From Cellulomonas aerilata (GTDB taxonomy: Bacteria; Actinomycetota; Actinomycetes; Actinomycetales; Cellulomonadaceae): a DNA stretch of 64,000 bases. Positions 8,258 to 41,704 of this stretch are shown here, piece after piece. The position numbers were made by a program, and so were the translations under genes. The notes beneath the pieces were generated by a model. It was not told the DNA's origin, did no database searches, and saw only the letters and a list, made by a program, of their open reading frames with translations. How positions within the stretch are numbered: the first letter of the stretch is position 1; every line of letters begins with the position of its first letter. The stretch is from the NCBI RefSeq assembly GCF_007991755.1, contig NZ_BJYY01000009.1, positions 1 through 64,000 of the forward strand, written 5' to 3'.

Positions 8258-8285
8258 CTCAACAGAGCCGGGCCCGTGCCGATGG
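8258..8285 (+). promoter_or_regulatory. Sigma-28 (FliA/WhiG)-like promoter CTCA-N16-GCCGATGG
   Basis: CTCA at 8258-8261, 16 nt, then GCCGATGG at 8278-8285, in the gap between the GNAT gene and the six-gene sensory operon and 81 nt before its first start codon. Elements with the same spacing occur before the pilin and pilT genes. The form agrees with WhiG-type (TAAA-N15-GCCGATAA) and actinobacterial FliA-type promoters. Function is inferred. Confidence 0.55.
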
Positions 8286-8366: not shown

Positions 8367-8756
8367 GTGACCACGATCCTGGTGGCGGACGACGACGCGG
8401 ACATCCGCGACCTCGTCTCCTTCAAGCTGGAGCAGGCGGGCTACCGGGTGGTCGCCGTCGGCGACGGCGTGCAGGCGCTCGACGCGGTCCGGGCGGAGCT
8501 GCCGGACCTGGCCGTCCTCGACCTGATGATGCCCGGCCTGTCCGGGCTCGACGTGTGCGCCCAGATCCGCCGGGAGCCGGCGTCGGCCACGCTGCCGGTC
8601 ATCATGCTGACCGCCCGCGTGCAGGAGCAGGACGTGGCGACGGGGTTCGCCACCGGCGCCGACGACTACGTGACCAAGCCGTTCAGCCCGCGGGAGCTGC
8701 TCAGCCGTGTCCAGGCCGTGCTCGCCCGCGTGCCGGTCGCGGCGACCGCGCCGTGA
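8367..8756 (+). CDS. Stand-alone response regulator receiver
   Basis: 129 aa with only a CheY-type receiver domain: acidic pocket DDD at 8-10, phospho-acceptor D52 in LAVLDLMMPG, T82 and K104 (VTKPFSPREL). There is no output domain, so it should act through protein contacts, plausibly on a product of the same operon. GTG start with GAGGTG upstream. Its stop overlaps the next gene by 4 bp (GTGA). Confidence 0.93.
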   Translation: MTTILVADDDADIRDLVSFKLEQAGYRVVAVGDGVQALDAVRAELPDLAVLDLMMPGLSGLDVCAQIRREPASATLPVIMLTARVQEQDVATGFATGADDYVTKPFSPRELLSRVQAVLARVPVAATAP

Positions 8757-29751: not shown

Positions 29752-30597
29752 ATGCGTGCCGCCGTCCTCGGCCACCCCATCGAGCACTCCCTGTCCCCGA
29801 CGCTGCACCGAGCCGCCTACGCCGCGCTCGGGCTGGTCGACTGGCGCTACGACGCCGTCGACGTCACGTCCGAGGGCCTGCCGGACCTGCTGCGCGACCT
29901 CGACGACGCCTGGGCCGGGCTCAGCCTGACGATGCCGCTGAAGCAGACGGTCCTCCCGCTGCTGGACCACGTCGAGCCGCTGGCCGAGGTGGTCGGAGCG
30001 GTCAACACCGTGCTCGTGCAGGGCGCCCCGGGCCGGCCGGTGCTGGTCGGGGCGAACACGGACGTCCACGGCCTCCTGGCCGCCCTGGGCGAGCGGCTCG
30101 TGCGCGGGTCCGGCCCCTTGACCGGGGCCGTGCTCGGGGCGGGCGCCACCGCCGCGTCGACGCTCGCCGCCCTCGCGCAGCTGGGGTGCACGACGCCGGT
30201 CGTGCACGTTCGCTCCGTCGGCCGGGCCGGTGCCCTCATGCGAGCGGCGCACCGGATGGGCGTCGAGCCGCGGTACGCCCCGCTGGACGACGCGCTGGGC
30301 TCGCTCACGGGAGCCGACGTCGTCGTCTCCACGCTCCCGGCGCACGCGGCCGACGGCCTCGCCGGCCAGCTGGGCGCGTCGGCAGCCGGCACGGCGGTGC
30401 ACGGCGTCCTGCTGGACGTCGTCTACGAGCCGCGTCCCACGGCGCTGTCGGTCGCGTGGGAGGCGCGCGGCGGCGCCGTCGTCGGCGGTGAGCGCATGCT
30501 GCTGCACCAGGCGGTCGAGCAGGTCCGGCTGATGACGTCCCGTCCGGCGCCGCTGGAGGCGATGGAGCGGGCGCTGGCGGAGCGGCTGGCGGGGTAG
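29752..30597 (+). CDS. aroE: Shikimate dehydrogenase
   Basis: 281 aa. Substrate site HSLSPTLHRAAY, catalytic lysine in LTMPLKQTVLP, substrate aspartate in GANTDVHGL and the NADP-binding loop region GAVLGAGATAAST. It reduces 3-dehydroshikimate. ATG 29752 is chosen because MRAAVLGHPIEHSLSP matches the family start; the nearest GGAGG is somewhat far upstream, so coupling to mltG is likely. The remaining shikimate genes aroC, aroK, aroB and aroQ lie beyond the pilus locus. Confidence 0.95.
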   Translation: MRAAVLGHPIEHSLSPTLHRAAYAALGLVDWRYDAVDVTSEGLPDLLRDLDDAWAGLSLTMPLKQTVLPLLDHVEPLAEVVGAVNTVLVQGAPGRPVLVGANTDVHGLLAALGERLVRGSGPLTGAVLGAGATAASTLAALAQLGCTTPVVHVRSVGRAGALMRAAHRMGVEPRYAPLDDALGSLTGADVVVSTLPAHAADGLAGQLGASAAGTAVHGVLLDVVYEPRPTALSVAWEARGGAVVGGERMLLHQAVEQVRLMTSRPAPLEAMERALAERLAG

Positions 30598-30630
30598 AGG
30601 CCGGCGCGCGAGGGGCTCGCAGCCGAATCC

Positions 30631-30658
30631 CTACGCGCGAGCAGCGACCTGCCGATGG
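30631..30658 (+). promoter_or_regulatory. Sigma-28-like promoter (degenerate -35) before pilB
   Basis: GCCGATGG at 30651-30658 with CTAC 16 nt upstream (30631-30634) instead of CTCA. It is the weakest of the five sites but keeps the spacing and position, 66 nt before the pilB start. Confidence 0.42.
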
Positions 30659-30724
30659 TGCACAGGACACCCGCACCGGCGGCCGCCGCCGGTCGTCGGG
30701 TCCCCGCACCCGGAAGGCCGCCAC

Positions 30725-32401
30725 GTGAAGCAGCTCGGACAGATCCTGCTCGACGAGGGGCTCGTCACCGAGTCCCAGCTGTCCGCCGCGCTGGCCGAGC
30801 AGCAGGTGCGCGGCCGTTCGCTGGGCACGACGCTGGTCGAGATCGGGCTGGTCACCGAGCGCCAGCTGGTCCAGGCACTCGCCGTGCAGGTCGGCATGCC
30901 GTTCGTCGACCTGGACGAGTACCCGGTGGACCGGATGGCGGCGTCCCTGGTGCCCGGCTCGCTGTGCCGCCGGCACGTCGTCCTGCCGGTCCGGATCGAG
31001 GACGGCTATCTCGTGCTGGCCACCGCCAACCCGGGCAACGTCGTCGCCGTCGACGACGTGCGGACGCACTGCGGGATGGCCGTGCGCACCGTCGTGGCGA
31101 CGCGTGACGACCTCATGCGTGCCATCGACCGCTACTGCCGGGTCGACGGCGAGATGGAGGACCTCTCGTCCGCGTTCGAGCAGCAGGTGCCCGAGCAGCC
31201 CGCGGACGACCTGGCGCGCATCGGCGAGGTCGCCGATGACGAGGCACCCATCGTCCGGTTCGTGAACCTGCTGATCACGCAGGCGATCACCGACCGGGCC
31301 TCGGACATCCACCTCGAGCCGACGGAGCACGACCTGCGGGTGCGGTACCGCATCGACGGCGTGCTGCACGAGACGCAGCGGGCGCCGCGGGCGATCGTCG
31401 GTGGCGTCATCTCGCGCGTGAAGATCATGGCCGACATCGACATCGCCGAGCGTCGGCGCCCGCAGGACGGCCGGCTGTCGGTCACCCACCAGGGACGCCA
31501 GGTCGACCTCCGGGTGGCCACCCTGCCCACCGTGTGGGGCGAGAAGATCGTCATGCGGATCCTGGACAACACCTCGACGAGCCTCGACCTGCGCGACCTG
31601 GCGTTCCTCGGCGGGAACCTCGACACCTACCGCGCCGCCTACACCAAGCCCTACGGGATGATCCTGGTCACCGGCCCGACCGGGTCGGGCAAGTCCACGA
31701 CGCTCTACGCCACGGTCAACGCGGTGTCCCGGCCCGAGGTCAACGTCATCACCGTCGAGGACCCGGTCGAGTACCGGCTGCCGGGCATCAACCAGGTGCA
31801 GGTCAACCCGAAGGCGGGCCTGACGTTCGCCGGGGCGCTGCGCTCGATCCTGCGGTCCGACCCCGACGTCGTGCTGCTGGGCGAGATCCGCGACCACGAG
31901 ACCGCGCAGATCGCCATCGAGGCCGCCCTCACCGGGCACCTGGTGCTGTCGACCCTGCACACCAACGACGCGCCGTCCGCCGTCACCCGACTCGTGGAGA
32001 TGGGGATCGAGCCGTTCCTGGTCGGGTCGGCGCTCGACGCCGTGGTGGCCCAGCGGCTGGCACGCCGGCTCTGCGACCGCTGCAAGGAGGCGTACCTGCC
32101 CGAGGAGTCCGAGCTCCGGGCGGCGCGGTTCCCGTGGACGCCCGGCGACGACGTGCCGAAGCTCCACCGTCCCGTCGGCTGCGGGTCCTGCTCGGGCACC
32201 GGGTACCGCGGCCGCATCGCGGTCCACGAGGTCATGCGGGTCACCGAGGAGATCGAGCGGCACGCGGTCGCCCGGTCGTCCGGCGCCGACGTCGCGCGGA
32301 CCGCTCGTGCCCAGGGCATGGTGCCGCTGCGCGAGGACGGCTGGGCCAAGGTGGCGCTCGGGCTGACGTCGATCGACGAGGTGCTCCGGGTCGTGAGCTG
32401 A
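30725..32401 (+). CDS. pilB: Type IV pilus extension ATPase PilB (GspE family)
   Basis: 558 aa. The N-terminal GspE_N/MshEN region (about 1-145) has two consecutive motifs, LGQILLDEGLVTESQL and LGTTLVEIGLVTERQL. Walker A GPTGSGKST is at 317-325, Walker B LLGEIRDHETAQIA, the histidine box STLHTNDAPSAVTRL, and a four-cysteine zinc knuckle CDRC...CGSC. It powers pilin polymerisation from the cytosolic side. GTG start with GGAAGG. It is followed by pilT after 147 nt that hold a second promoter-like site. Confidence 0.95.
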   Translation: MKQLGQILLDEGLVTESQLSAALAEQQVRGRSLGTTLVEIGLVTERQLVQALAVQVGMPFVDLDEYPVDRMAASLVPGSLCRRHVVLPVRIEDGYLVLATANPGNVVAVDDVRTHCGMAVRTVVATRDDLMRAIDRYCRVDGEMEDLSSAFEQQVPEQPADDLARIGEVADDEAPIVRFVNLLITQAITDRASDIHLEPTEHDLRVRYRIDGVLHETQRAPRAIVGGVISRVKIMADIDIAERRRPQDGRLSVTHQGRQVDLRVATLPTVWGEKIVMRILDNTSTSLDLRDLAFLGGNLDTYRAAYTKPYGMILVTGPTGSGKSTTLYATVNAVSRPEVNVITVEDPVEYRLPGINQVQVNPKAGLTFAGALRSILRSDPDVVLLGEIRDHETAQIAIEAALTGHLVLSTLHTNDAPSAVTRLVEMGIEPFLVGSALDAVVAQRLARRLCDRCKEAYLPEESELRAARFPWTPGDDVPKLHRPVGCGSCSGTGYRGRIAVHEVMRVTEEIERHAVARSSGADVARTARAQGMVPLREDGWAKVALGLTSIDEVLRVVS

Positions 32402-32435
32402 CCGGGTCGCGATGGACCTCTCGGCGCACCGGTCG

Positions 32436-32463
32436 CTCACACATCCGCGCCGGCGGCCGATAG
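32436..32463 (+). promoter_or_regulatory. Sigma-28-like promoter CTCA-N16-GCCGATAG before pilT
   Basis: CTCA 32436-32439, GCCGATAG 32456-32463, 85 nt before the pilT GTG. Of the five sites it is the closest to the WhiG consensus -10 GCCGATAA. Confidence 0.58.
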
Positions 32464-32548
32464 GTCGACGACGACGGTGCGGCCCGCCGGGCGCGCGCCG
32501 CCATGCCGGAGCCCGCCGTCGGCGGACCGACGACCTGGAGGCGCATCT

Positions 32549-33811
32549 GTGAGCCAGCCCCACGCGACAGCGGACGACCTGCGCGGCACCACGCCGCGGT
32601 ACGACGGCGTCCCGGGCGGCGCGCTCGACCGGGTCCCGACCCAGCCCTCGGGCGGCGACCCGGACCTCGACGGCGTGCTGCGGGCCATGGTGGCCCGGGG
32701 CGCGTCGGACCTGCACCTGACGGTCGGCGCGTCGCCGACCATCCGCGTGGACGGTGCGCTCCGGCCGCTGGACGTGCACGAGGCCGTCGGCCCCGACTCC
32801 GTGCGACGCATGCTGTACGGCATCCTCACGCCGGCGCAGCGCGCGACGTTCGAGGAGAACCTGGAGCTCGACCTCGCCTACGCCATCTCCGGCGTCGGCC
32901 GCTTCCGGGTCAACCTCTACCAGCAGCGCCGGTCCGTCGGCGGGGTGTTCCGCCTCATCCCGCACGAGATCAAGGCGCTCGACCAGCTCGGGATGCCGCC
33001 CGTGGTCGGCACCTTCGCGGGCCTGCCCCGTGGGCTGGTGCTCGTCACCGGGCCCACCGGGTCCGGCAAGTCCACGACCCTGGCGTCGCTGATCGACCTC
33101 GCGAACCGCACCCGGGACGACCACATCGTCACGGTGGAGGACCCCATCGAGTACCTGCACCGCCACAAGCGATCGCTGATCAACCAGCGCGAGGTCGGCA
33201 CGGACACGCACTCCTTCGCCAGCGCGCTGAGGCACGTCCTGCGTCAGGACCCGGACATCATCCTCGTCGGCGAGATGCGTGACCTGGAGACGATCTCCGT
33301 GGCGCTGACCGCGGCGGAGACCGGCCACCTCGTCTTCGCGACGCTGCACACGCAGGACGCCGCCCAGACCGTCGACCGGATCATCGACGTCTTCCCGGCC
33401 GAGCAGCACGGCCAGGTCCGCACCCAGCTCGCCGGCGCGATCCAGGGCGTCGTCTCCCAGACGCTGTGCAGGACGGCGTCCGGCCGAGGTCGCGCCGTCG
33501 CGACCGAGGTGATGGTCGCGACGCCGGCGATCCGCAACCTCATCCGCGAGGGCAAGACCCATCAGCTCATGTCCGCCATGCAAGCCGGGGCGCAGCACGG
33601 CATGCACACCCTGGACCAGGACCTGGCCCGCCTCACCGCCGCGGGCTCGATCACCTGGGAGGAGGGCCTGGAGCGCTGCCACGACCGGGAGGACTTCTCC
33701 CGGCTCACCGGTCGGTCGGGCAGTGGACGGCAGCTGCGCTGGTCCTCGGTCGACATCCCCGGGGACGCCTTCGGGTCGGCGGGCCTGGATCTCGGACCGG
33801 TGGTCGGCTGA
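32549..33811 (+). CDS. pilT: Type IV pilus retraction ATPase PilT
   Basis: 420 aa. PilT-type N-terminal SDLHLTVGASPTIRVDGAL, Walker A GPTGSGKSTT, Walker B ILVGEMRDLETIS and LVFATLHTQDAAQTVDRI. It depolymerises pili, giving twitching and DNA uptake in other bacteria. The GTG at 32549 has GGAGG 8 nt upstream. A disordered N-terminal stretch of about 45 aa and a C-terminal tail of about 30 aa extend beyond the usual core. The stop overlaps pilC by 1 nt. Confidence 0.95.
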   Translation: MSQPHATADDLRGTTPRYDGVPGGALDRVPTQPSGGDPDLDGVLRAMVARGASDLHLTVGASPTIRVDGALRPLDVHEAVGPDSVRRMLYGILTPAQRATFEENLELDLAYAISGVGRFRVNLYQQRRSVGGVFRLIPHEIKALDQLGMPPVVGTFAGLPRGLVLVTGPTGSGKSTTLASLIDLANRTRDDHIVTVEDPIEYLHRHKRSLINQREVGTDTHSFASALRHVLRQDPDIILVGEMRDLETISVALTAAETGHLVFATLHTQDAAQTVDRIIDVFPAEQHGQVRTQLAGAIQGVVSQTLCRTASGRGRAVATEVMVATPAIRNLIREGKTHQLMSAMQAGAQHGMHTLDQDLARLTAAGSITWEEGLERCHDREDFSRLTGRSGSGRQLRWSSVDIPGDAFGSAGLDLGPVVG

Positions 33812-35040
33812 TGTCGGACGCCACCACGACCTTCCAGTACGCGGTCCGGGACAGCGCGGGGAAGGTCGTCAAGGGCCGGATCGAGGCGGTCAACACCGCC
33901 GCCGTCGCGTCCCGGCTGAAGACCATGGGCCTGGCCCCGATCGCGATCGACCCGGTGCGGACGACCGGGCTGCGCCGCGAGCTGACCCTGCCGTCCCTGG
34001 GCGACCGGGTGCCGCTGAAGGACGTCGCGATCATGTCCCGGCAGCTGGCGACCATGGTGTCGGCCGGCCTGTCCCTGCTGCGCGCCCTCGCCATCCTGGC
34101 CGACCAGACGGAGAACAAGGTGCTGGCCAAGGTGCTCGCGCGGGTGCGGCACGAGGTCGAGGGCGGCGTGTCGCTGTCCAGCGCGATGGCCGCTCACCGC
34201 GAGGTGTTCCCACCCCTCATGCTCAACATCATCCGGGCCGGCGAGACCGGCGGCTTCCTCGAAACCGCGCTGGTGTCGGTGGCGGAGAACTACGAGTCCG
34301 AGGTCAAGCTGCGCAGCACCATCCGGTCCGCGATGACCTACCCCGCCATGGTGTTCGGGATGGCGGTCCTGGCGGTGATCGGGATGCTCGTCTTCATCGT
34401 CCCCGTGTTCCAGGGCATGTTCGAGGACCTCGGCGGCGAGCTGCCGCTCCCGACCCGCATCCTCGTCGCAGCGAGCCACGCGATGACCTGGCTGTCACCC
34501 CTGCTCGTCCTCGCCGGGGTGGTCGGCGCCTGGTGGTGGAACAAGCACCGGTACGACGACGCCGTGCGCGCCGTCATCGACCCGTTGAAGCTGCGGGTGC
34601 CGGTCTTCGGGACGCTGTTCACGAAGATCTCGATCGCCCGGTTCAGCCGCAACCTCGGCACGATGATGGGCGCCGGCGTGCCGATCCTGCACGCCCTCGA
34701 CGTCGTGGGGGAGACCAGCGGCAGCTGGGCCGTGGAGCGCGCGGTCGCCGAGGTGAAGGAGAGCGTCCGCAACGGGCAGCCGCTCGCCGCACCGCTCGGT
34801 GACCATCCGGTGTTCCCGCCGATGGTGGTGCAGATGATCGCGGTGGGCGAGGACGCCGGTGCGCTGGAGACGATGCTCGCGAAGATCTCCGAGTTCTACG
34901 ACCAGGACGTCCAGGCGACGACGGAGCAGCTGACCTCACTCATCGAGCCGCTGCTCATCGCGGTCCTCGGCACGCTCATCGGCGGCATGATCATCGCCCT
35001 CTACCTGCCGATCTTCAACATCTTCACCCTCGTGGAATAG
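33811..35040 (+). CDS. pilC: Type IV pilus inner-membrane platform protein PilC (GspF family)
   Basis: 409 aa with two GspF domains: VAIMSRQLATMVSAGLSLL in the first and ARFSRNLGTMMGAGVPILHA in the second, with three membrane segments (about 180-200, 228-250, 380-405). It anchors the ATPases and the pilus base. The start overlaps the pilT stop by one base. Confidence 0.95.
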   Translation: MSDATTTFQYAVRDSAGKVVKGRIEAVNTAAVASRLKTMGLAPIAIDPVRTTGLRRELTLPSLGDRVPLKDVAIMSRQLATMVSAGLSLLRALAILADQTENKVLAKVLARVRHEVEGGVSLSSAMAAHREVFPPLMLNIIRAGETGGFLETALVSVAENYESEVKLRSTIRSAMTYPAMVFGMAVLAVIGMLVFIVPVFQGMFEDLGGELPLPTRILVAASHAMTWLSPLLVLAGVVGAWWWNKHRYDDAVRAVIDPLKLRVPVFGTLFTKISIARFSRNLGTMMGAGVPILHALDVVGETSGSWAVERAVAEVKESVRNGQPLAAPLGDHPVFPPMVVQMIAVGEDAGALETMLAKISEFYDQDVQATTEQLTSLIEPLLIAVLGTLIGGMIIALYLPIFNIFTLVE

Positions 35041-35120
35041 CCCTGCCGCGCGTTCGTGCTGCCGCCGGCGGGAGCCGACCCGGCGTACGGGTGAATAGCG
35101 CACGGAAACGCCACGAGGCC

Positions 35121-35148
35121 CTCACGCAGCTGCGGCGGGTGCCGATCC
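35121..35148 (+). promoter_or_regulatory. Sigma-28-like promoter CTCA-N16-GCCGATCC before the pilin gene
   Basis: CTCA 35121-35124 and GCCGATCC 35141-35148, in the 165-nt gap between pilC and the major pilin, 57 nt before the pilin ATG. A separate promoter fits the need for far more pilin than machinery. Confidence 0.57.
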
Positions 35149-35205
35149 AGAAGTCACACGGCGAACGCCGACCACGTCCCCACGACTCCCGAAGGAGAGC
35201 CCACC

Positions 35206-35619
35206 ATGGAGGCTCGCATGCGCAAGGCCCTCGACGAGAACCAGAAGGGCTTCACCCTCGTGGAGCTGCTCGTCGTCGTCATCATCATCGGCATCCTCGC
35301 CGCCATCGCCATCCCGGTGTACCTCGGTCAGACCGGCAAGGCGAAGGACGCCGCCGCCAAGGCCGACCTGGCGAATGCCAAGACCGCGCTTGTCATGACG
35401 CTCGTCGACAACCCGCCCGCGGCGTCGGTCTCGCTCGGGTCCATCACCGCCCTGGTTCCTGGCGCCGAAGGGTCCACGGGCACGACCGACTTCAAGGGCA
35501 AGTACACGAAGGGCACGGCCGGCGCCGCCGACACCTTCTGCCTCCAGATCACGTCCGCGAGCACGGCGATCTTCTCGGTGCTCGACACCGGCTCCATCAA
35601 GGCCGGCGCCTGCGCCTGA
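35206..35619 (+). CDS. pilA: Major type IV pilin
   Basis: 137 aa. Class III signal with cleavage after G15 (NQKG/FTLVELLVVVIIIG), Glu at mature position 5 and a hydrophobic N-terminal helix. The mature protein is about 122 aa with two cysteines near the C-terminus (TFCLQ and GACA), which could close a D-region disulfide loop. ATG 35206 has AAGGAG. It has its own promoter-like site upstream and two tandem hairpins just downstream, consistent with high, separate expression. Confidence 0.95.
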   Translation: MEARMRKALDENQKGFTLVELLVVVIIIGILAAIAIPVYLGQTGKAKDAAAKADLANAKTALVMTLVDNPPAASVSLGSITALVPGAEGSTGTTDFKGKYTKGTAGAADTFCLQITSASTAIFSVLDTGSIKAGACA

Positions 35620-35624
35620 TCGAG

Positions 35625-35641
35625 CGTCTTGCCACAAGACG
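35625..35641 (+). repeat. Small inverted repeat after the pilin gene
   Basis: CGTCTTG (35625-35631) and CAAGACG (35635-35641) form a perfect 7-bp stem with a 3-nt loop, 5 nt after the pilin stop and abutting the larger hairpin. Confidence 0.7.
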
Positions 35642-35674
35642 TGTGGGGTGCGACGGCGACGTCGCACCCCACAC
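35641..35674 (+). terminator. Strong 14-bp hairpin after the pilin gene
   Basis: GTGTGGGGTGCGAC (35641-35654) pairs perfectly with GTCGCACCCCACAC (35661-35674), loop GGCGAC. There is no U-tract. It can end most transcripts, or protect the 3' end of the pilin mRNA while letting some polymerase continue into the minor pilins. Confidence 0.75.
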
Positions 35675-35713
35675 CCCTGTCTTGACATGTTCCGCATCAC
35701 GGAGGAGGGCGTC

Positions 35714-36127
35714 ATGGATGAGGACGCGGGCCGTCCCGACGACAGCGGCCTCAGCCTGGCCGAGGTGATCGTGTCGATGCTCGTCCTGGCCGTCGTCGCC
35801 ATGGCGTTCCTGCCGGTGGTCGCCCGCACCACCACGGCAGCGGCCACCGAGACGGCCGTCGCCACCGCGACCAGGCTGGTGAGCCGGCAGCTCGAGCTGG
35901 CCCGGGTCAGCGGTGCGACCTGCACGGCGCTCAGGGCCACGACGGCCGACGTGGACGCCCGTGACGGCGAAAACCGCAGGTACGCCGTCACCACCGAGCT
36001 GGTCCCGGTGGCACCGAGCACCGCGTGCCCGGGACTCGTGCGGTACACCGTCCGGGTGGCGCGCACCGGCACACCAGGCCCAGCGCTGGCCACCGGCTCG
36101 ACCTACGTGCTGCTGGAGAACCCGTGA
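35714..36127 (+). CDS. Minor pilin (prepilin-like)
   Basis: 137 aa. Prepilin motif DDSG/LSLAEVIVSMLVLAVVAM with Glu at mature position 5 followed by a hydrophobic helix. The rest is not conserved; two cysteines (ATCTALRA and STACPG) could pair. ATG 35714 is preceded by GGAGGAGG. It overlaps the next minor pilin by 4 bp. Minor pilins prime assembly or form the pilus tip. Confidence 0.88.
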   Translation: MDEDAGRPDDSGLSLAEVIVSMLVLAVVAMAFLPVVARTTTAAATETAVATATRLVSRQLELARVSGATCTALRATTADVDARDGENRRYAVTTELVPVAPSTACPGLVRYTVRVARTGTPGPALATGSTYVLLENP

Positions 36128-36795
36128 GGACCCGACCGCTCCGGCTCCCCACCGACGACCGGGGCATCACCGCCGCCGAGATGCTGGTGTCCTCCGCACT
36201 CGTCCTCGTCTTCCTGCCGCTCGCCGGCATCGTCGTGAGCTCGGCCGTCACCACCCAGCGCGAGGTGCGGGCCACCACGGATGCCGGCATGGCGGCGCAG
36301 CTCGTCGCGGCGTCCGTGGAGGACGGGGTCCGCTTCGCGGGGACCGTGCGCCTGGACCCCTGGTCCGCCACCCACGCCAACGAACGCCTCGTCGTCAGCA
36401 CCCGTGCGGGGACGGCGAGCGTCTACACCGCCGTGTGCCAGGCGTGGTTCTACGACGCCGCGAACGAGACGCTGTCCACCAAGCGCGTCCCGGCCGGCCC
36501 CGCAGCCCCGGGCGCTCTCGCCGAGCCCGTGACGCGCGAGGAACGGGAGACCTGGACCGTGCTCGCGGAGGGCGTCACCCGCCGACCGGTCGACCCCTCG
36601 CAGGTGGACGGACAGATGCGTCCGCTGTTCACCCACTCGACGACGCCGACCGCCGGCACCGTCACGCTCGACCTGCGGTTGCCGACGTCGCCGCGGGCAG
36701 TGGGGGAGGTCGTCACCTCGCGGGACGCCGTGGTCGTGTCCACGTCCGTCACCACCCGATCACCCCGAGACATCACGAGGTCCCCGTGCTCCTGA
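36124..36795 (+). CDS. Minor pilin, PilW-like
   Basis: 223 aa. Prepilin motif DDRG/ITAAEMLVSSALVLVFLP with Glu5, then a longer head domain. GTG overlaps the previous stop (GTGA). By position between a PilV-like and a PilX-like gene it matches PilW; sequence alone gives only the prepilin class. Confidence 0.83.
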   Translation: MRTRPLRLPTDDRGITAAEMLVSSALVLVFLPLAGIVVSSAVTTQREVRATTDAGMAAQLVAASVEDGVRFAGTVRLDPWSATHANERLVVSTRAGTASVYTAVCQAWFYDAANETLSTKRVPAGPAAPGALAEPVTREERETWTVLAEGVTRRPVDPSQVDGQMRPLFTHSTTPTAGTVTLDLRLPTSPRAVGEVVTSRDAVVVSTSVTTRSPRDITRSPCS

Positions 36796-38039
36796 CCACG
36801 TGTCCTCGCCTCCTGAGCCCAGCCCGCCGGCGCGCGGTCCCGGTCGCTCCGACGGATGCCGGGGTGGCCATGGCCACGGTCGTCTGGGTCGTCACGCTCA
36901 CCGGGATCATCGCCGCGACCCTGGCGACCATGACGGTGTTCGCCATCGGTCACACGAGCAGCAACCGCGCCTCCGTGCAGGCCGTCGCCGCTGCGGAAGC
37001 GGGGATCGACTACGCCCGCACCAGGCTCATGGACCCCACGATCTGCCGCCCGGACCCGTCCGGTGGCCCCGCAACCATCGCGAGCCCGACCCCCGGCCCG
37101 GTGTTCACCGTGCGGGTCCAGTACCAGCGCCCGAACGCGCCGACCGGGGAGTGGGTGAACGGCTGTCCGGTCGCCGAGGCCTCCGAGGTGCGCCTGCGGG
37201 CGACCGGCGACGCGATCCAGCGAGGGGTTGCCGGCCAGAGCTCGGGCGACGTCGAGACCGTCGACTCGGTCTACACCGGCAGGAAGCTCGAGTTCCCCTA
37301 CGTGGAGATGACGACGCAGTCGCCGCGAGCGGGCGGGCACCTCCTGGAGTTCGCCACGGGGACCGAGGGCACGGGCCTGACGACCCGGTCGGCGACAGCC
37401 GCCCAGTTCCCCGGACTCACCAAGGACGACTACCGGTGGCGACGGTTCGACGTCATGTCGGTCCCGGACATGGCGGCCGGACTCGGCGCCGGCCTCTCAA
37501 GCACCTGCACCCTCACCGCGACTGCGGGGGCGACCGCTCTTCGGGTCACGGTTCCGCTCAGGGTCGAGGCCCGGTCGAGCAGCTGCTCGGCGCTGCGGCT
37601 CTCCTCGGCGACCGGCGCGAGGTTCACGGTCGAGCTCGGGGCGGACCTCGTCATCTTCGCCGACCAGTTCGAGCTCAGCGGGACGCTGGTCGTGCGCTCC
37701 ACCGACGGGCTGCCGCACACGTTGTACGTCGTGCGTCCGTGGACCGGGTCGTGCGCGAGCGATGCGGCCGACGTCAAGATCGGGCGTGGAGCGGGGGGCA
37801 CCGGGATCCAGACGCTGGACGGCGCGCGCGTGATGCTGTACAGCGCGGCCGGCATGGTGTTCGGGGAGTCCGGCGCGCCCCAGCAGCAGGACTTCGCCGG
37901 CCAGATCTACGCCTGCTCCCTCTGGTACCACGACAAGGTCCGCCTGACGTACGCACCAGCCACCGCGAGGATCCTCGGGAACGACGCGCCCTGGCCTGCC
38001 ACCCAGCTGGTGTCGAAGCTCGACATCCCGAACCCCTAG
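36786..38039 (+). CDS. PilX-like pilus-associated protein with a large head
   Basis: 417 aa. The N-terminal segment DAGVAMATVVWVVTLTGIIA is hydrophobic like PilX_N but lacks a glutamate at position 5. The region after it is large (about 360 aa), with several cysteines and a beta-rich C-terminal half (FTVELGADLVIFADQFELSG). GTG overlaps the preceding gene by 10 nt. It may form the tip complex with the two minor pilins, or be an adhesin. Family call is moderate. Confidence 0.7.
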   Translation: MLLTTCPRLLSPARRRAVPVAPTDAGVAMATVVWVVTLTGIIAATLATMTVFAIGHTSSNRASVQAVAAAEAGIDYARTRLMDPTICRPDPSGGPATIASPTPGPVFTVRVQYQRPNAPTGEWVNGCPVAEASEVRLRATGDAIQRGVAGQSSGDVETVDSVYTGRKLEFPYVEMTTQSPRAGGHLLEFATGTEGTGLTTRSATAAQFPGLTKDDYRWRRFDVMSVPDMAAGLGAGLSSTCTLTATAGATALRVTVPLRVEARSSSCSALRLSSATGARFTVELGADLVIFADQFELSGTLVVRSTDGLPHTLYVVRPWTGSCASDAADVKIGRGAGGTGIQTLDGARVMLYSAAGMVFGESGAPQQQDFAGQIYACSLWYHDKVRLTYAPATARILGNDAPWPATQLVSKLDIPNP

Positions 38040-38051
38040 GCCGAGAGCCCC

Positions 38052-38825
38052 ATGTCACTCCTCGTCGCCCCGCTCGCCCTCCTCGGCCTCCTCGTCGGCT
38101 CCTTCCTCAACGTGGTCGTGTCCCGCGTGCCCGCCGGCGAGTCGGTCGTGCACCCGCCGAGCCGGTGCCCGACCTGCGGCAGCCGCATCCGCCCGTGGGA
38201 CAACGTGCCGGTCCTCTCGTGGCTGGTCCTGAGGGGTCGCTGCCGGGACTGCGGCACGCGGATCTCCGCGCGCTACCCGGCGGTGGAGGCGGCGACCGCC
38301 GTCCTGTTCGCGCTGGTCGCGCTCCTCGTGGGGCCGTGGGCCGTGCCCGCCTTCGCCTACCTGGCCGCCATCGGCGTCGCGCTCGCGCTGATCGACCTCG
38401 ACACCCACCGGCTCCCGAACGCGATCGTCCTGCCGTCGTACCCCGTGCTCGGGGCGCTCCTCGCGCTGGCCTCGTGGGGCACCGGCGACTGGTCGGCGCT
38501 GCTGCGGGCCGTCATCGGTGGCACGGCGCTCTGGGTGGCGTACTTCGCGCTGTGCCTGGCCAAGCCGGGCGGCATGGGCTTCGGCGACGTCAAGCTCGCC
38601 GGCCTGCTGGGTGGCGCACTGGCGTGGCTCGGCTGGGGACCGTTCGCCGTCGGCGCCTTCGGCGCGTTCGTCCTCGGCGGCCTCTTCGCGGTCGTGCTGC
38701 TGGTCACCGGCCGCGCCGGTCGGGGCAGCGGCATCCCGTTCGGCCCGTGGATGCTGCTGGGCGCCGGCCTCGGTGTCGCCGTCGGGGAGCCGCTGTGGGG
38801 TGCCTACCTGGGCCTCCTGGTCTGA
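38052..38825 (+). CDS. pilD: Prepilin peptidase PilD (A24 aspartic protease)
   Basis: 257 aa, polytopic. N-terminal methylase-like domain with the paired zinc motifs CPTC and CRDC, catalytic aspartates in ALIDLDTHRLPN and GFGDVKLAG. It cleaves and N-methylates the prepilins encoded just upstream. Start 12 nt after the PilX-like stop. Confidence 0.95.
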   Translation: MSLLVAPLALLGLLVGSFLNVVVSRVPAGESVVHPPSRCPTCGSRIRPWDNVPVLSWLVLRGRCRDCGTRISARYPAVEAATAVLFALVALLVGPWAVPAFAYLAAIGVALALIDLDTHRLPNAIVLPSYPVLGALLALASWGTGDWSALLRAVIGGTALWVAYFALCLAKPGGMGFGDVKLAGLLGGALAWLGWGPFAVGAFGAFVLGGLFAVVLLVTGRAGRGSGIPFGPWMLLGAGLGVAVGEPLWGAYLGLLV

Positions 38826-38839
38826 CGGGCGACGCGGCG

Positions 38840-38855
38840 GGTCCTTCGCAGGACC
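38840..38855 (+). repeat. Small hairpin after pilD
   Basis: GGTCCT-TCGC-AGGACC forms a 6-bp stem with a 4-nt loop, 15 nt after the pilD stop. It may be a weak terminator between the pilD and pilM units. Confidence 0.35.
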
Positions 38856-38880
38856 GGCACGACGGCGCCGGGCGCAACAG

Positions 38881-38908
38881 GTCACAACGGGTGATCGCCT
38901 GCCGATAG
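38881..38908 (+). promoter_or_regulatory. Sigma-28-like promoter GTCA-N16-GCCGATAG before pilM
   Basis: GTCA 38881-38884 (one mismatch to CTCA), then GCCGATAG 38901-38908, 38 nt before the pilM GTG. Confidence 0.55.
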
Positions 38909-38946
38909 GCCGGGCGGACCACGTAGACCACAGAAGGAGCCCCGCC

Positions 38947-40011
38947 GTGCCCAAGGCAGGAGTCGTCGGCCTCGACGTCGGCAGCACGCACGTGCGCGCC
39001 GCCGAGATCCGGCTCGCGCGCGGCCGCGCAGGGGGGAATCCCGTGCCGACCCTGACCCGGTACGCCGAGGTGCGCCTGCCGCTGGGCGCCGTCCGCGACG
39101 GCGAGGTGGCCGACCCCTCCGCCGTGACGGACGCCCTCAGGCGGCTGTGGGCCGAGGGCCGGTTCTCCACCCGCGACGTCAACATCGGCGTCGGGAACCA
39201 GCGCGTCGTCGTCCGCGAGCTCGACCTGCCGTGGATGCCCCTGCCGCACATCCGCGCCTCGCTGCCGTTCCAGGTGCAGGAGCTCATCCCCATGCCGGTC
39301 GAGGAGGCGCTGCTCGACTACTACCCGACGGGGGAGCGCGAGGGCTCGTCCGGACGGATGGTCCAGGGCATGCTCGTCGCCGCCACCCGGGACACCGTCC
39401 GCGCGAACCTCATGGCCGTGGAGTCCGCCGGGCTGCGGACGCAGATGGTGGACCTCGGTCCGTTCGCCCTGCTGCGGTCGCTGGCCCACGGCGACCACGC
39501 GGCGCGGACCGTCGCCCTGGTCGAGATCGGCGCCCGCATCACCCAGGTCGTCATCGTCGCGCACGGCGTCCCGCGCTTCGTGCGCATGCTGCCGTCCGGC
39601 GGGCAGAACGTCACCGACGCCGTCGCCGCGGCCCTCGGCATCGCCGCGGCCGAGGCGGAGGACGTGAAGCGGGCGGTCGGGATCGGCCGCGAGGTCGGCC
39701 CCGAGCAGGAGGCGGCCGCGGAGGCGATCAGCACCGTGGTCCGGCCGCTCGTGGAGGCCGTGCGCAACACCTTCGTCTACTACGCGAGCAACAACACCGG
39801 GGCCGGGATCGAGGTGGCGGTCCTCAGCGGGGGCGCGTCCCAGCTCCCCGGCCTGGACCGGTACCTGGCCGCGACGAGCCGGCTGCCCGTCGTCGCCGGC
39901 GATCCGCTGGGGTCGCTGCGGGTCGTGCGTGACGAGCGCCTCCGGTCGGTCACCCGGAACGCCGCCGTCATGGCGACGCCGATCGGTCTGGCGTACGGGG
40001 TGGCGGCATGA
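38947..40011 (+). CDS. pilM: Type IV pilus assembly protein PilM (actin-like)
   Basis: 354 aa. Actin-fold nucleotide-binding features GVVGLDVGSTHVRAAEIR (phosphate 1) and VALVEIGARITQVVIV (phosphate 2), and the PilM segment LPFQVQELIPMPVEEALLD. It forms the cytosolic ring that binds the PilN N-terminus. GTG 38947 has AAGGAG. It overlaps pilN by 4 bp. Confidence 0.93.
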   Translation: MPKAGVVGLDVGSTHVRAAEIRLARGRAGGNPVPTLTRYAEVRLPLGAVRDGEVADPSAVTDALRRLWAEGRFSTRDVNIGVGNQRVVVRELDLPWMPLPHIRASLPFQVQELIPMPVEEALLDYYPTGEREGSSGRMVQGMLVAATRDTVRANLMAVESAGLRTQMVDLGPFALLRSLAHGDHAARTVALVEIGARITQVVIVAHGVPRFVRMLPSGGQNVTDAVAAALGIAAAEAEDVKRAVGIGREVGPEQEAAAEAISTVVRPLVEAVRNTFVYYASNNTGAGIEVAVLSGGASQLPGLDRYLAATSRLPVVAGDPLGSLRVVRDERLRSVTRNAAVMATPIGLAYGVAA

Positions 40012-40682
40012 GGGCACGGACGGCGACTCTCGCCGCACCCGCCCGTCCCCAGGTCAACCTGCTGCCCGGGGACGTCCGGCAGGCCCGGACGCTCGGCGTC
40101 GTCAAGCGCTGGACGCTGGTCTCCAGCGGGGTGACGCTGCTCGCCATCGGCACCGTCGCCGCCGTCGCGCAGCTGCAGACCCAGATCGCGGACTCCGAGC
40201 TCGCGCAGGCGGACGCCGAGTCGGCCGGGATCGTGGCGGAGCAGCGCCCGTTCGCCCGGATCACCTCGCTGCGGGCCGAGCTGGAGACGCTCCGATCGGC
40301 GCGTGACCACGGGGTTGCCCAGGAGATCCTGTGGTCGGACTACCTCGGTGCGATCACAGCGGTCACCCCACCCGGCGTCGGGATCAGCACGCTCGACTAC
40401 ACGGGCGCGACCCCGCTCGCCGCCGCCCCCGGCTCGGCCGACCCGCTCGTCGTGGCCGGGATCGGGGCGATCACCTTCACCGCCCTGGCCGCGGACGTGC
40501 CGGACACCGCCGCGTGGGCCGACGCCCTGGACGCCGTGCCGGGGTTCCGCGACGTCCGGGTCACCACGGTCGACCGCGCCGACAAGGGCGGCGACCTCCG
40601 CTACGAGATGACCGGGACGATCCAGGTCGACGACGCCGCGCTGGCCCACCGCTTCGACCCGCAGCCCGAGGGGGACCGATGA
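40008..40682 (+). CDS. pilN: Type IV pilus assembly protein PilN
   Basis: 224 aa. The short cytosolic N-terminus RPQVNLLPGDVRQ contains the VNLLP-type PilM-binding motif, followed by one membrane segment (about 40-60), a coiled coil and an extracytoplasmic ferredoxin-like domain. It bridges PilM and PilO. ATG overlaps pilM (ATGA). Confidence 0.9.
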   Translation: MRARTATLAAPARPQVNLLPGDVRQARTLGVVKRWTLVSSGVTLLAIGTVAAVAQLQTQIADSELAQADAESAGIVAEQRPFARITSLRAELETLRSARDHGVAQEILWSDYLGAITAVTPPGVGISTLDYTGATPLAAAPGSADPLVVAGIGAITFTALAADVPDTAAWADALDAVPGFRDVRVTTVDRADKGGDLRYEMTGTIQVDDAALAHRFDPQPEGDR

Positions 40683-41704
40683 CCCGCCGCAATGGCTCCG
40701 TCGAATGGATCGCCGGCACGGCCGTCGTGTGCCTGCTCGCGCTGGTCGCGTCGTGGCTGCTCCTGTTCGGACCGCTGCTGGACCAGGCCGCGGCCACGCG
40801 TGCCCAGGCCGAGCAGGTCCGCGACCAGAACGAGGCGCTGCGTGCGTCCGTGGACGCGCTGCGCGCCGACTTCGCGCACCTCGCCGAGTACGAGTCCGAG
40901 CTGACCGCCCTGGACGCCGCCGTGCCGTCGCGGGCCACGCTGACCGACCTGACACGCGAGCTGGCCGCCGCCGCGACCGCCGCCGGTGTGACGATCGTCG
41001 GGATGGACGTGTCGACCGCGGTGGCCCTCACCGGTGAGCCGGTAGCGCCGCCCGCGGCCGCCGAGGGCGCCGCCTCGGACACCGCCGCGACCACCGACCC
41101 GGCCGCGCCTGCCGCGCCGGCCGCCCCGCCGGCGGGTGCGGCCCCGGTGGCTCCGCCGGTACCCGGCATGGTCGCGATCCCGCTCAGCATCGACGTGGTC
41201 GGCTCGGTGGAGCCGGCCCGGGCGTTCCTCGCTGCGGTGCAGACCGCTCTGGACAGGCAGCTGCTCGTCACGACGCTCGCCGTCAAGGCGCTCGAGGAGT
41301 CGGACCCCACCGACAGGATGCCGGCCACCGCGGTCGGCGACGTCGAGGTGACCGTCGGCGCCCTCGCGTACGTGCTGCCGCGCTCGGACTCCGAGCCCAC
41401 CGAGGACGGCGTGCCGCTGCCGGGCGGCTCCGGGGCGAACCCGTTCGTCCCGTCCGTCGAGGCACCCGCGCCCGTGCCGCCCGACCCGGCCCAGTCGGTG
41501 GCGGACGCCGTGGCGGCGGCGATCGCCGAGGCGTCCGCGACCGCCGAGGCGGCAGCCGCCGAGCGCGCAGCCGCAGCGGCGGCGGCGGCAGCGGCGACCC
41601 AGGCAGCGTCCTCGACCCCGCCCGCGGCCACGACGACGTCGACGACCCCCGGCGTCGAGGTCGACGCCGACGCCGCACCCGCGGACCCGCCGTCCGGCGG
41701 CTGA
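40679..41704 (+). CDS. pilO: PilO-like pilus alignment protein with long low-complexity tail
   Basis: 341 aa. Membrane segment about 12-32, coiled coil with repeated [11 protein letters not shown], then a small folded domain interrupted by an Ala/Pro linker (residues about 122-160), and a C-terminal tail of about 110 residues that is almost only Ala, Pro, Thr, Glu and Val. PilO normally ends near 200 aa, so the tail is an addition. It overlaps pilN by 4 bp. No PilP or PilQ follows, as expected without an outer membrane. Confidence 0.85.

Follow-up and report, generated by a model that had tools for sequence, protein, structure and literature searches.

Which sigma factor transcribes the type IV pilus genes of Cellulomonas aerilata, and does the same factor also serve the flagella? 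The window analysed here is a stretch of 64,000 nucleotides (nt), positions 1-64,000 of contig NZ_BJYY01000009.1, forward strand, and contains a type IV pilus locus. The initial annotation had proposed that this locus is driven by four promoters of the sigma-28 (FliA/WhiG) type, each marked by a GCCGAT element, before pilB, pilT, the pilin gene and pilM. Reading the sequence confirmed these four elements, with a spacer of 16 nt (N16) in 4/4, and a fifth element of the same form was found elsewhere in the window.

30631..30656, + strand: putative WhiG/FliA promoter of pilB; CTAC at 30631-30634, N16, GCCGAT at 30651-30656; the GTG start at 30725 is 68 nt downstream
32436..32461, + strand: putative WhiG/FliA promoter of pilT; CTCA-N16-GCCGAT; the GTG start at 32549 is 87 nt downstream
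35121..35146, + strand: putative WhiG/FliA promoter of the major pilin gene; CTCA-N16-GCCGAT; the ATG start at 35206 is 59 nt downstream, and a second ATG 71 nt
38881..38906, + strand: putative WhiG/FliA promoter of pilMNO; GTCA-N16-GCCGAT; the GTG start at 38947 is 40 nt downstream
8258..8283, + strand: fifth element, alike in form; the gene of a single-domain response regulator (8367-8756; Response_reg domain) starts 83 nt downstream

We propose that the elements serve as -35/-10 promoters of the WhiG/FliA-type (sigma-28) factor of this genome, which would recognise CTCA-N16-NCCGAT. Together they would define one regulon comprising the genes for flagellar structure and export, for flagellin, for chemotaxis and for the methyl-accepting chemotaxis proteins (MCPs), those of several enzymes that make or degrade cyclic di-GMP (c-di-GMP), and the type IV pilus locus. 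On sequence evidence we put the probability of this reading at roughly 87%. What the sequence itself shows, as described below, is the sigma gene and the common element, where that element is placed, how far it is conserved and that it co-occurs with the sigma factor.

Spacer specificity, the sigma factor and its predicted targets

We asked how often elements of this form occur in the window by chance. NTCA-N16-NCCGAT had 5 sites, 4 of which were non-coding and <200 nt before a start (pilT, pilin, pilM and the response regulator). With spacers of 12-15 and 17-20 nt there were 5 sites together, and 0 were non-coding before a gene start. Note that the form NTCA-N-NCCGAT was picked once the finding was known, and that the CTAC of pilB falls outside it. 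A looser scan of the window with CTCA-N14-18-GCCGAW was not significant (3 matches vs 1.17 expected; 11/100 shuffles reach 3) and was not used as evidence; spacer specificity is a stronger test than this loose-pattern count.

Genome-wide, CTCA-N15-17-GCCGAW had 55 matches vs 13 for a reversed control pattern. The spacer was N16 in 40 of the 55, N17 in 12 and N15 in 3. When only matches that were non-coding and <180 nt from a start were considered, 23 remained, 22 of them with N16. The consensus of Actinoplanes FliA is reportedly CTCA-N15-17-GCCGAA.

A FliA/WhiG homologue is present in the genome, as one protein above the NCBIfam FliA_WhiG cut-off (261 bits vs 189.6). Its nearest solved relative is Streptomyces WhiG (6PFJ, 2e-89). 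By eye, the sigma gene lies between a recombinase gene on one side and rpsB and tsf on the other, in agreement with the local synteny described for whiG-like genes in PMC4255298. As a separate observation, the sigma (L060:24-881) reads KFQTYA and RIHGA, while the other 40/40 aligned sigmas have E and R at residues 106 and 114.

The same element stood before flagellar, chemotaxis and MCP genes as well as pil genes, which, with the sigma above cut-off, supports the sigma-28-type assignment of the initial annotation, which had proposed this very check. The genome encodes flagellin, and CTCA-N16-NCCGAT was found upstream of flagellin/fliC (65 nt), flgB (80), flbD (61), fliM (24), flhA (75) and cheA (42). 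Sites with one mismatch precede an MCP gene and cheB in the flagellar cluster. Six of the 7 MCP genes were testable, the seventh having only 48 nt of upstream sequence. All 6 had a site of at least 9/10 letters 45-88 nt upstream, with N16 in 5 and N15 in 1.

The 22 exact non-coding N16 targets included 5 GGDEF, 2 EAL and 2 MCP genes, together with those of CheA, PilT and the pilin (12 in all). The other 10 were a response regulator, a histidine kinase, a VanY-type peptidase, a DivIVA-like and a Wzz-type protein, a weak metallopeptidase match, three proteins with no Pfam match and an unscanned one (L026). There are 37 GGDEF matches genome-wide, and most GGDEF genes have no exact element. The L026 site precedes a secreted protein, glycoside hydrolase-like by eye; the sites at L043, L057, L016 and L024 precede a Wzz-type protein, a secreted protein with no Pfam match, a DivIVA-like and a VanY-type protein, respectively. 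These five proteins are possible further members of the regulon. Thus, one motility sigma probably switches on pilus, flagellar, chemotaxis and c-di-GMP genes.

Conservation among relatives and across the order

We then examined the same sites in 24 loci from Cellulomonas, Actinotalea and Pengzhenrongella, found via PilM, scoring a site at ≥9/10 letters. The testable loci numbered 6 for pilB, 16 for pilT, 19 for the pilin and 23 for pilM, the others having no such gene or less than 150 nt upstream. Genes outside the window were called with a home-made codon-usage gene finder, and some starts may be off. The pilM site was present in 23/23 testable relatives, the pilin site in 14/19 (shuffle mean 0.5), the pilB site in 4/6 (shuffle mean 0.2) and the pilT site in only 3/16; across the four genes the shuffle means were 0.2 to 0.5. 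Comparison genes had upstream sites in 0/17 (pilC), 0/23 (pilN), 2/24 (pilO), 0/23 (aroC) and 4/23 (pilD) relatives. Because of this unequal conservation, we grade the sites gene by gene: those of pilMNO and the pilin would be firm targets and that of pilB a likely one, while pilT may be a lineage-specific addition.

At pilM the letters between the boxes vary between species. The form in 22/23 relatives was CTCAAG-N15-NCCGAT, which is N17 counted from CTCA. The window and C. endophytica (L063) have N16 without AAG at pilM, and N16 prevails genome-wide in the genome of the window. L063 is the nearest relative found, its PilM sharing 75% identity with that of the window, and it has 10/10 N16 sites upstream of pilB, pilT, the pilin and pilM. 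The sigma was above cut-off in 23/25 genomes (own plus relatives).

To extend the comparison, we surveyed 248 genomes of the order, 89 of which have PilM (88 besides our own). Upstream stretches were fetched for 86 of the 88, leaving out G104 and G118 (partial PilM). The sigma, at an order-wide search threshold of 1e-52, and flagellin were tested in 80/88, leaving out G104, G118, G131 and G231 (partial or weak PilM) and G235, G245, G255 and G265 (heavily sampled family f9). A strict site was defined as NTCA-N15-17-NCCGA[TC] within 161 nt. It was found on the coding strand of 55/86 stretches vs 1/86 on the opposite strand. The spacer spectrum at pilM (n=86) was 12 for N16 and 43 for N17, and each remaining spacer between 10 and 23 had 0 to 4. 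A connection between the N16 spacer and sigma region 4 was also considered and rejected; by eye, nothing in that region sets the N16 genomes apart from those with N17.

The strict pilM site co-occurred with the sigma, which was above cut-off in 69/80 PilM genomes. It was present in 53/69 sigma-positive vs 1/11 sigma-negative genomes (mononucleotide-shuffle rate 0.8%; Fisher p 2.8e-5, a value that ignores kinship). Counted by family, most tested members had the strict site in 8/9 sigma-positive vs 0/3 negative families (~0.018 by hand). The single sigma-negative genome with a strict site was G149.

Genes of the locus and the search for an anti-sigma factor

By Pfam, the locus encodes a type IV pilus; 10 proteins were scanned, 3 of them without a match. 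By eye, the genes on either side are aroE and aroC, both ordinary.

30725..32401, + strand: pilB, assembly ATPase with MshEN domain (Pfam T2SSE 6e-138, MshEN 9e-22)
32549..33811, + strand: pilT, retraction ATPase (Pfam T2SSE 3.5e-47, scanned from the upstream in-frame start 32477)
33811..35040, + strand: pilC, inner-membrane platform protein (Pfam T2SSF 4e-63)
35206..35619, + strand: major pilin (Pfam N_methyl 2e-9)
35687..36127, + strand: minor pilin-like protein (weak N_methyl, 21.1 bits vs cut-off 21.2, scanned from 35714)
36124..36795, + strand: putative minor pilin, by locus position; no Pfam match
36786..38039, + strand: putative pilus-associated protein, by locus position; no Pfam match
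38052..38825, + strand: pilD, prepilin peptidase (Pfam A24_N_bact and Peptidase_A24)
38947..40011, + strand: pilM (Pfam PilM_2 3e-39)
40008..40682, + strand: pilN-like, judged by its place behind pilM, without a Pfam match; in 23/24 loci pilM is followed by a relative
40679..41704, + strand: pilO-like, by gene order after pilN, not Pfam; a relative at the same place in 24/24 loci

A c-di-GMP riboswitch was considered on account of the likeness of GCCGATGG to the way the class I aptamer ends at its 3' side. An Rfam scan of positions 30000-40000, with E-values allowed up to 5, returned 3 sub-gathering matches, none of them a c-di-GMP riboswitch, and the idea was rejected.

Neither of two anti-sigma factors was detected. 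A 48-residue RsiG probe, which recovers the solved RsiG chains and matches in 126/197 genomes of the phylum, matched in 0/25 genomes (own plus 24 relatives); the genome was searched with this probe and not with the Pfam model of RsiG, and a diverged RsiG could escape it. For FlgM, the best match in the genome reached 13.5 bits vs a cut-off of 25. A 152-residue protein after the L011 site had been suspected to be RsiG-like, and a search of solved structures gave no RsiG. Elsewhere in the order, a flagellate member encodes an RsiG-like twin-motif protein (PF22802, 1.4e-19) at L231:6750-7343 (G025:C1:418749-419342). Its gene lies ~2-9 kb from flagellin and from flhA, flgL and flgK (these three read by eye), and its product is perhaps a c-di-GMP-gated anti-sigma factor beside flagellar genes.

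Competing explanations and the role of flagella

Several results weigh against assigning the elements to the sigma-28 factor. The -35 of the pilB element, CTAC, agrees with CTCA at 2/4 positions and is the poorest among the four, and pilT has the low conservation given above. Sites also occurred on the opposite strand of the relatives (pilin 3/19, pilB 0/6, pilT 0/16), and the count that tells here is pilM with 7/23. Under a looser scoring the order-wide contrast between strands shrank to 59/86 on the coding vs 23/86 on the opposite strand (shuffle mean 7.25); with the coding start removed, the opposite strand still had 14/86. The Fisher value is further open to the objection of kinship. L072 (C. 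septica), L082 (C. biazotea) and G149 have the pilM site and no sigma above cut-off. Note that the matches in L072 and L082 are on high-numbered contigs and that G149 consists of ~580 contigs; the sigma is likely missing from these three due to assembly gaps.

Family f9 is sigma-positive and had the strict site in only 2/15 genomes, which likewise tells against the assignment. Many f9 genomes have TTGAG in the -35 place before GCCGATA. A relaxed motif admitting this form, written after f9 had been seen and thus post hoc, was found in 10/15 f9 genomes and overall in 61/69 sigma-positive vs 1/11 sigma-negative genomes. Region 4.2 of the f9 sigma reads TLAQIG or TLGQIG; in place of the Q, the other 33 aligned sigmas carry E in 32 cases (TLAEIG) and D in 1. 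This is suggestive, no more, of a joint change in the -35 element and the sigma region that binds it.

Could the matches be coincidental, given that GC-rich DNA often yields GCCGAT? The non-significant loose scan of the window points this way, as do the pilB and pilT sites, which are individually weak or little conserved. However, the spacer specificity in the window, the genome-wide excess of 55 over 13, the 23/23 relatives at pilM despite differing letters between the boxes, and the strand counts of 55 vs 1 of 86 make coincidence hardly credible; the counts rule it out for pilM and, less strongly, for the pilin. It is also quite improbable that the elements bind another regulator, or another sigma that shares flagellar and pilus targets. 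In its favour, two further proteins of the genome score 166 and 113.6 bits with the FliA model, which is below its cut-off (with similar matches in 17/25 and 25/25 genomes, respectively, among own plus 24 relatives). Against another regulator stand the two-part form, the constant spacer, the position 24-88 nt ahead of the starts of flagellar, chemotaxis, MCP and pilus genes, the resemblance of the -10 to the flagellar GCCGATAA published in PMC8325347, and 0 strict sites in the sigma-negative families f4, f18 and f19 (10 genomes).

A narrower version of the proposal would make only pilMNO and the pilin gene dependent on sigma-28; pilB and pilT would then rely chiefly on other promoters, and the elements before them would be weak or accidental. 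The 3/16 relatives at pilT and the CTAC of pilB favour it, and the presence in L063 of 10/10 N16 sites before all four genes speaks against it; we regard it as rather unlikely. The idea that four promoters drive the locus thus held in part: pilM and the pilin are firm and pilB is likely, but the four are unequal, with little conservation at pilT and a poor -35 at pilB. Under the sigma-28 assignment, RNA polymerase carrying this sigma would initiate at the elements, and pili would be produced together with the motile state.

We also considered whether the association depends on flagella. Flagellin was found in 57/80 tested PilM genomes. The sigma without detectable flagellin was seen in 15/80, and 11 of these 15 have the pilM site in strict or relaxed form (strict in 5). 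L099, L093, L092 and stretches of family f9 are among the 15 in which sigma and PilM are kept without detectable flagellin. Flagellin without the sigma was seen in 3 genomes, two of them without the pilM site and the third being G149. L170 and L144 (family f18) have flagellin and PilM and no FliA/WhiG sigma at 1e-52. Neither sigma nor flagellin was detected in 8 genomes, and the pilM site in 0/8 of them. By these counts, the link of the sigma-type site to pilM does not need flagella. Within this order, pilus control may even be an old and general task of WhiG/FliA that can be separated from flagella, with pili keeping the sigma in non-flagellate actinobacteria. This view draws on the 11/15 flagellin-less genomes and on the joint difference of -35 and sigma region in f9, and we hold it tentatively, at a little under even odds.

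Pilus genes under such a sigma had been expected to be a new link in a Gram-positive. This was not borne out, as WhiG-family control of pili is published for Rubrobacter and Actinoplanes (PMC8325347, 2021). Rubrobacter radiotolerans resembles our case in having a WhiG-type sigma and flagellar-type promoters, with mapped start sites, inside its type IV pilus cluster, and also before diguanylate cyclase and phosphodiesterase genes (PMC8325347). It differs in that WhiG is gated there by RsiG and c-di-GMP, whereas the RsiG probe finds nothing here, and in that the regulon predicted here also takes in flagellar and chemotaxis genes. In Actinoplanes missouriensis, the genes of zoospore pili and flagella are reportedly both transcribed by WhiG-like sigmas, with no RsiG (Kimura 2019, Jang 2016, cited in PMC8325347). 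That organism, however, grows as a mycelium, forms sporangia and has three FliA-family factors, and here one is above cut-off. Streptomyces, whose WhiG is the closest solved sequence, is non-motile; its WhiG governs sporulation and is restrained by RsiG (PMC8325347). The -35 of the element is CTCA here, and the published -35 is TAAA. Among open-licence papers, judged by titles and the starts of abstracts, we found none that treats WhiG/FliA in connection with type IV pili for Cellulomonadaceae or Micrococcales.

New here are the combined regulon in a Cellulomonas, the wide conservation of the pilM promoter, its persistence without flagellin, and the lack of a detectable RsiG or FlgM. The predicted regulon is concrete and testable; it would put type IV pili and c-di-GMP turnover under the same sigma as flagella and chemotaxis, with no known anti-sigma gating. 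A link formerly known from two distant actinobacteria now appears in many genomes of one order, and the pilM promoter is kept in most sigma-positive families sampled from that order. This points to a common switch for swimming and for pilus-based behaviour on surfaces in these bacteria.

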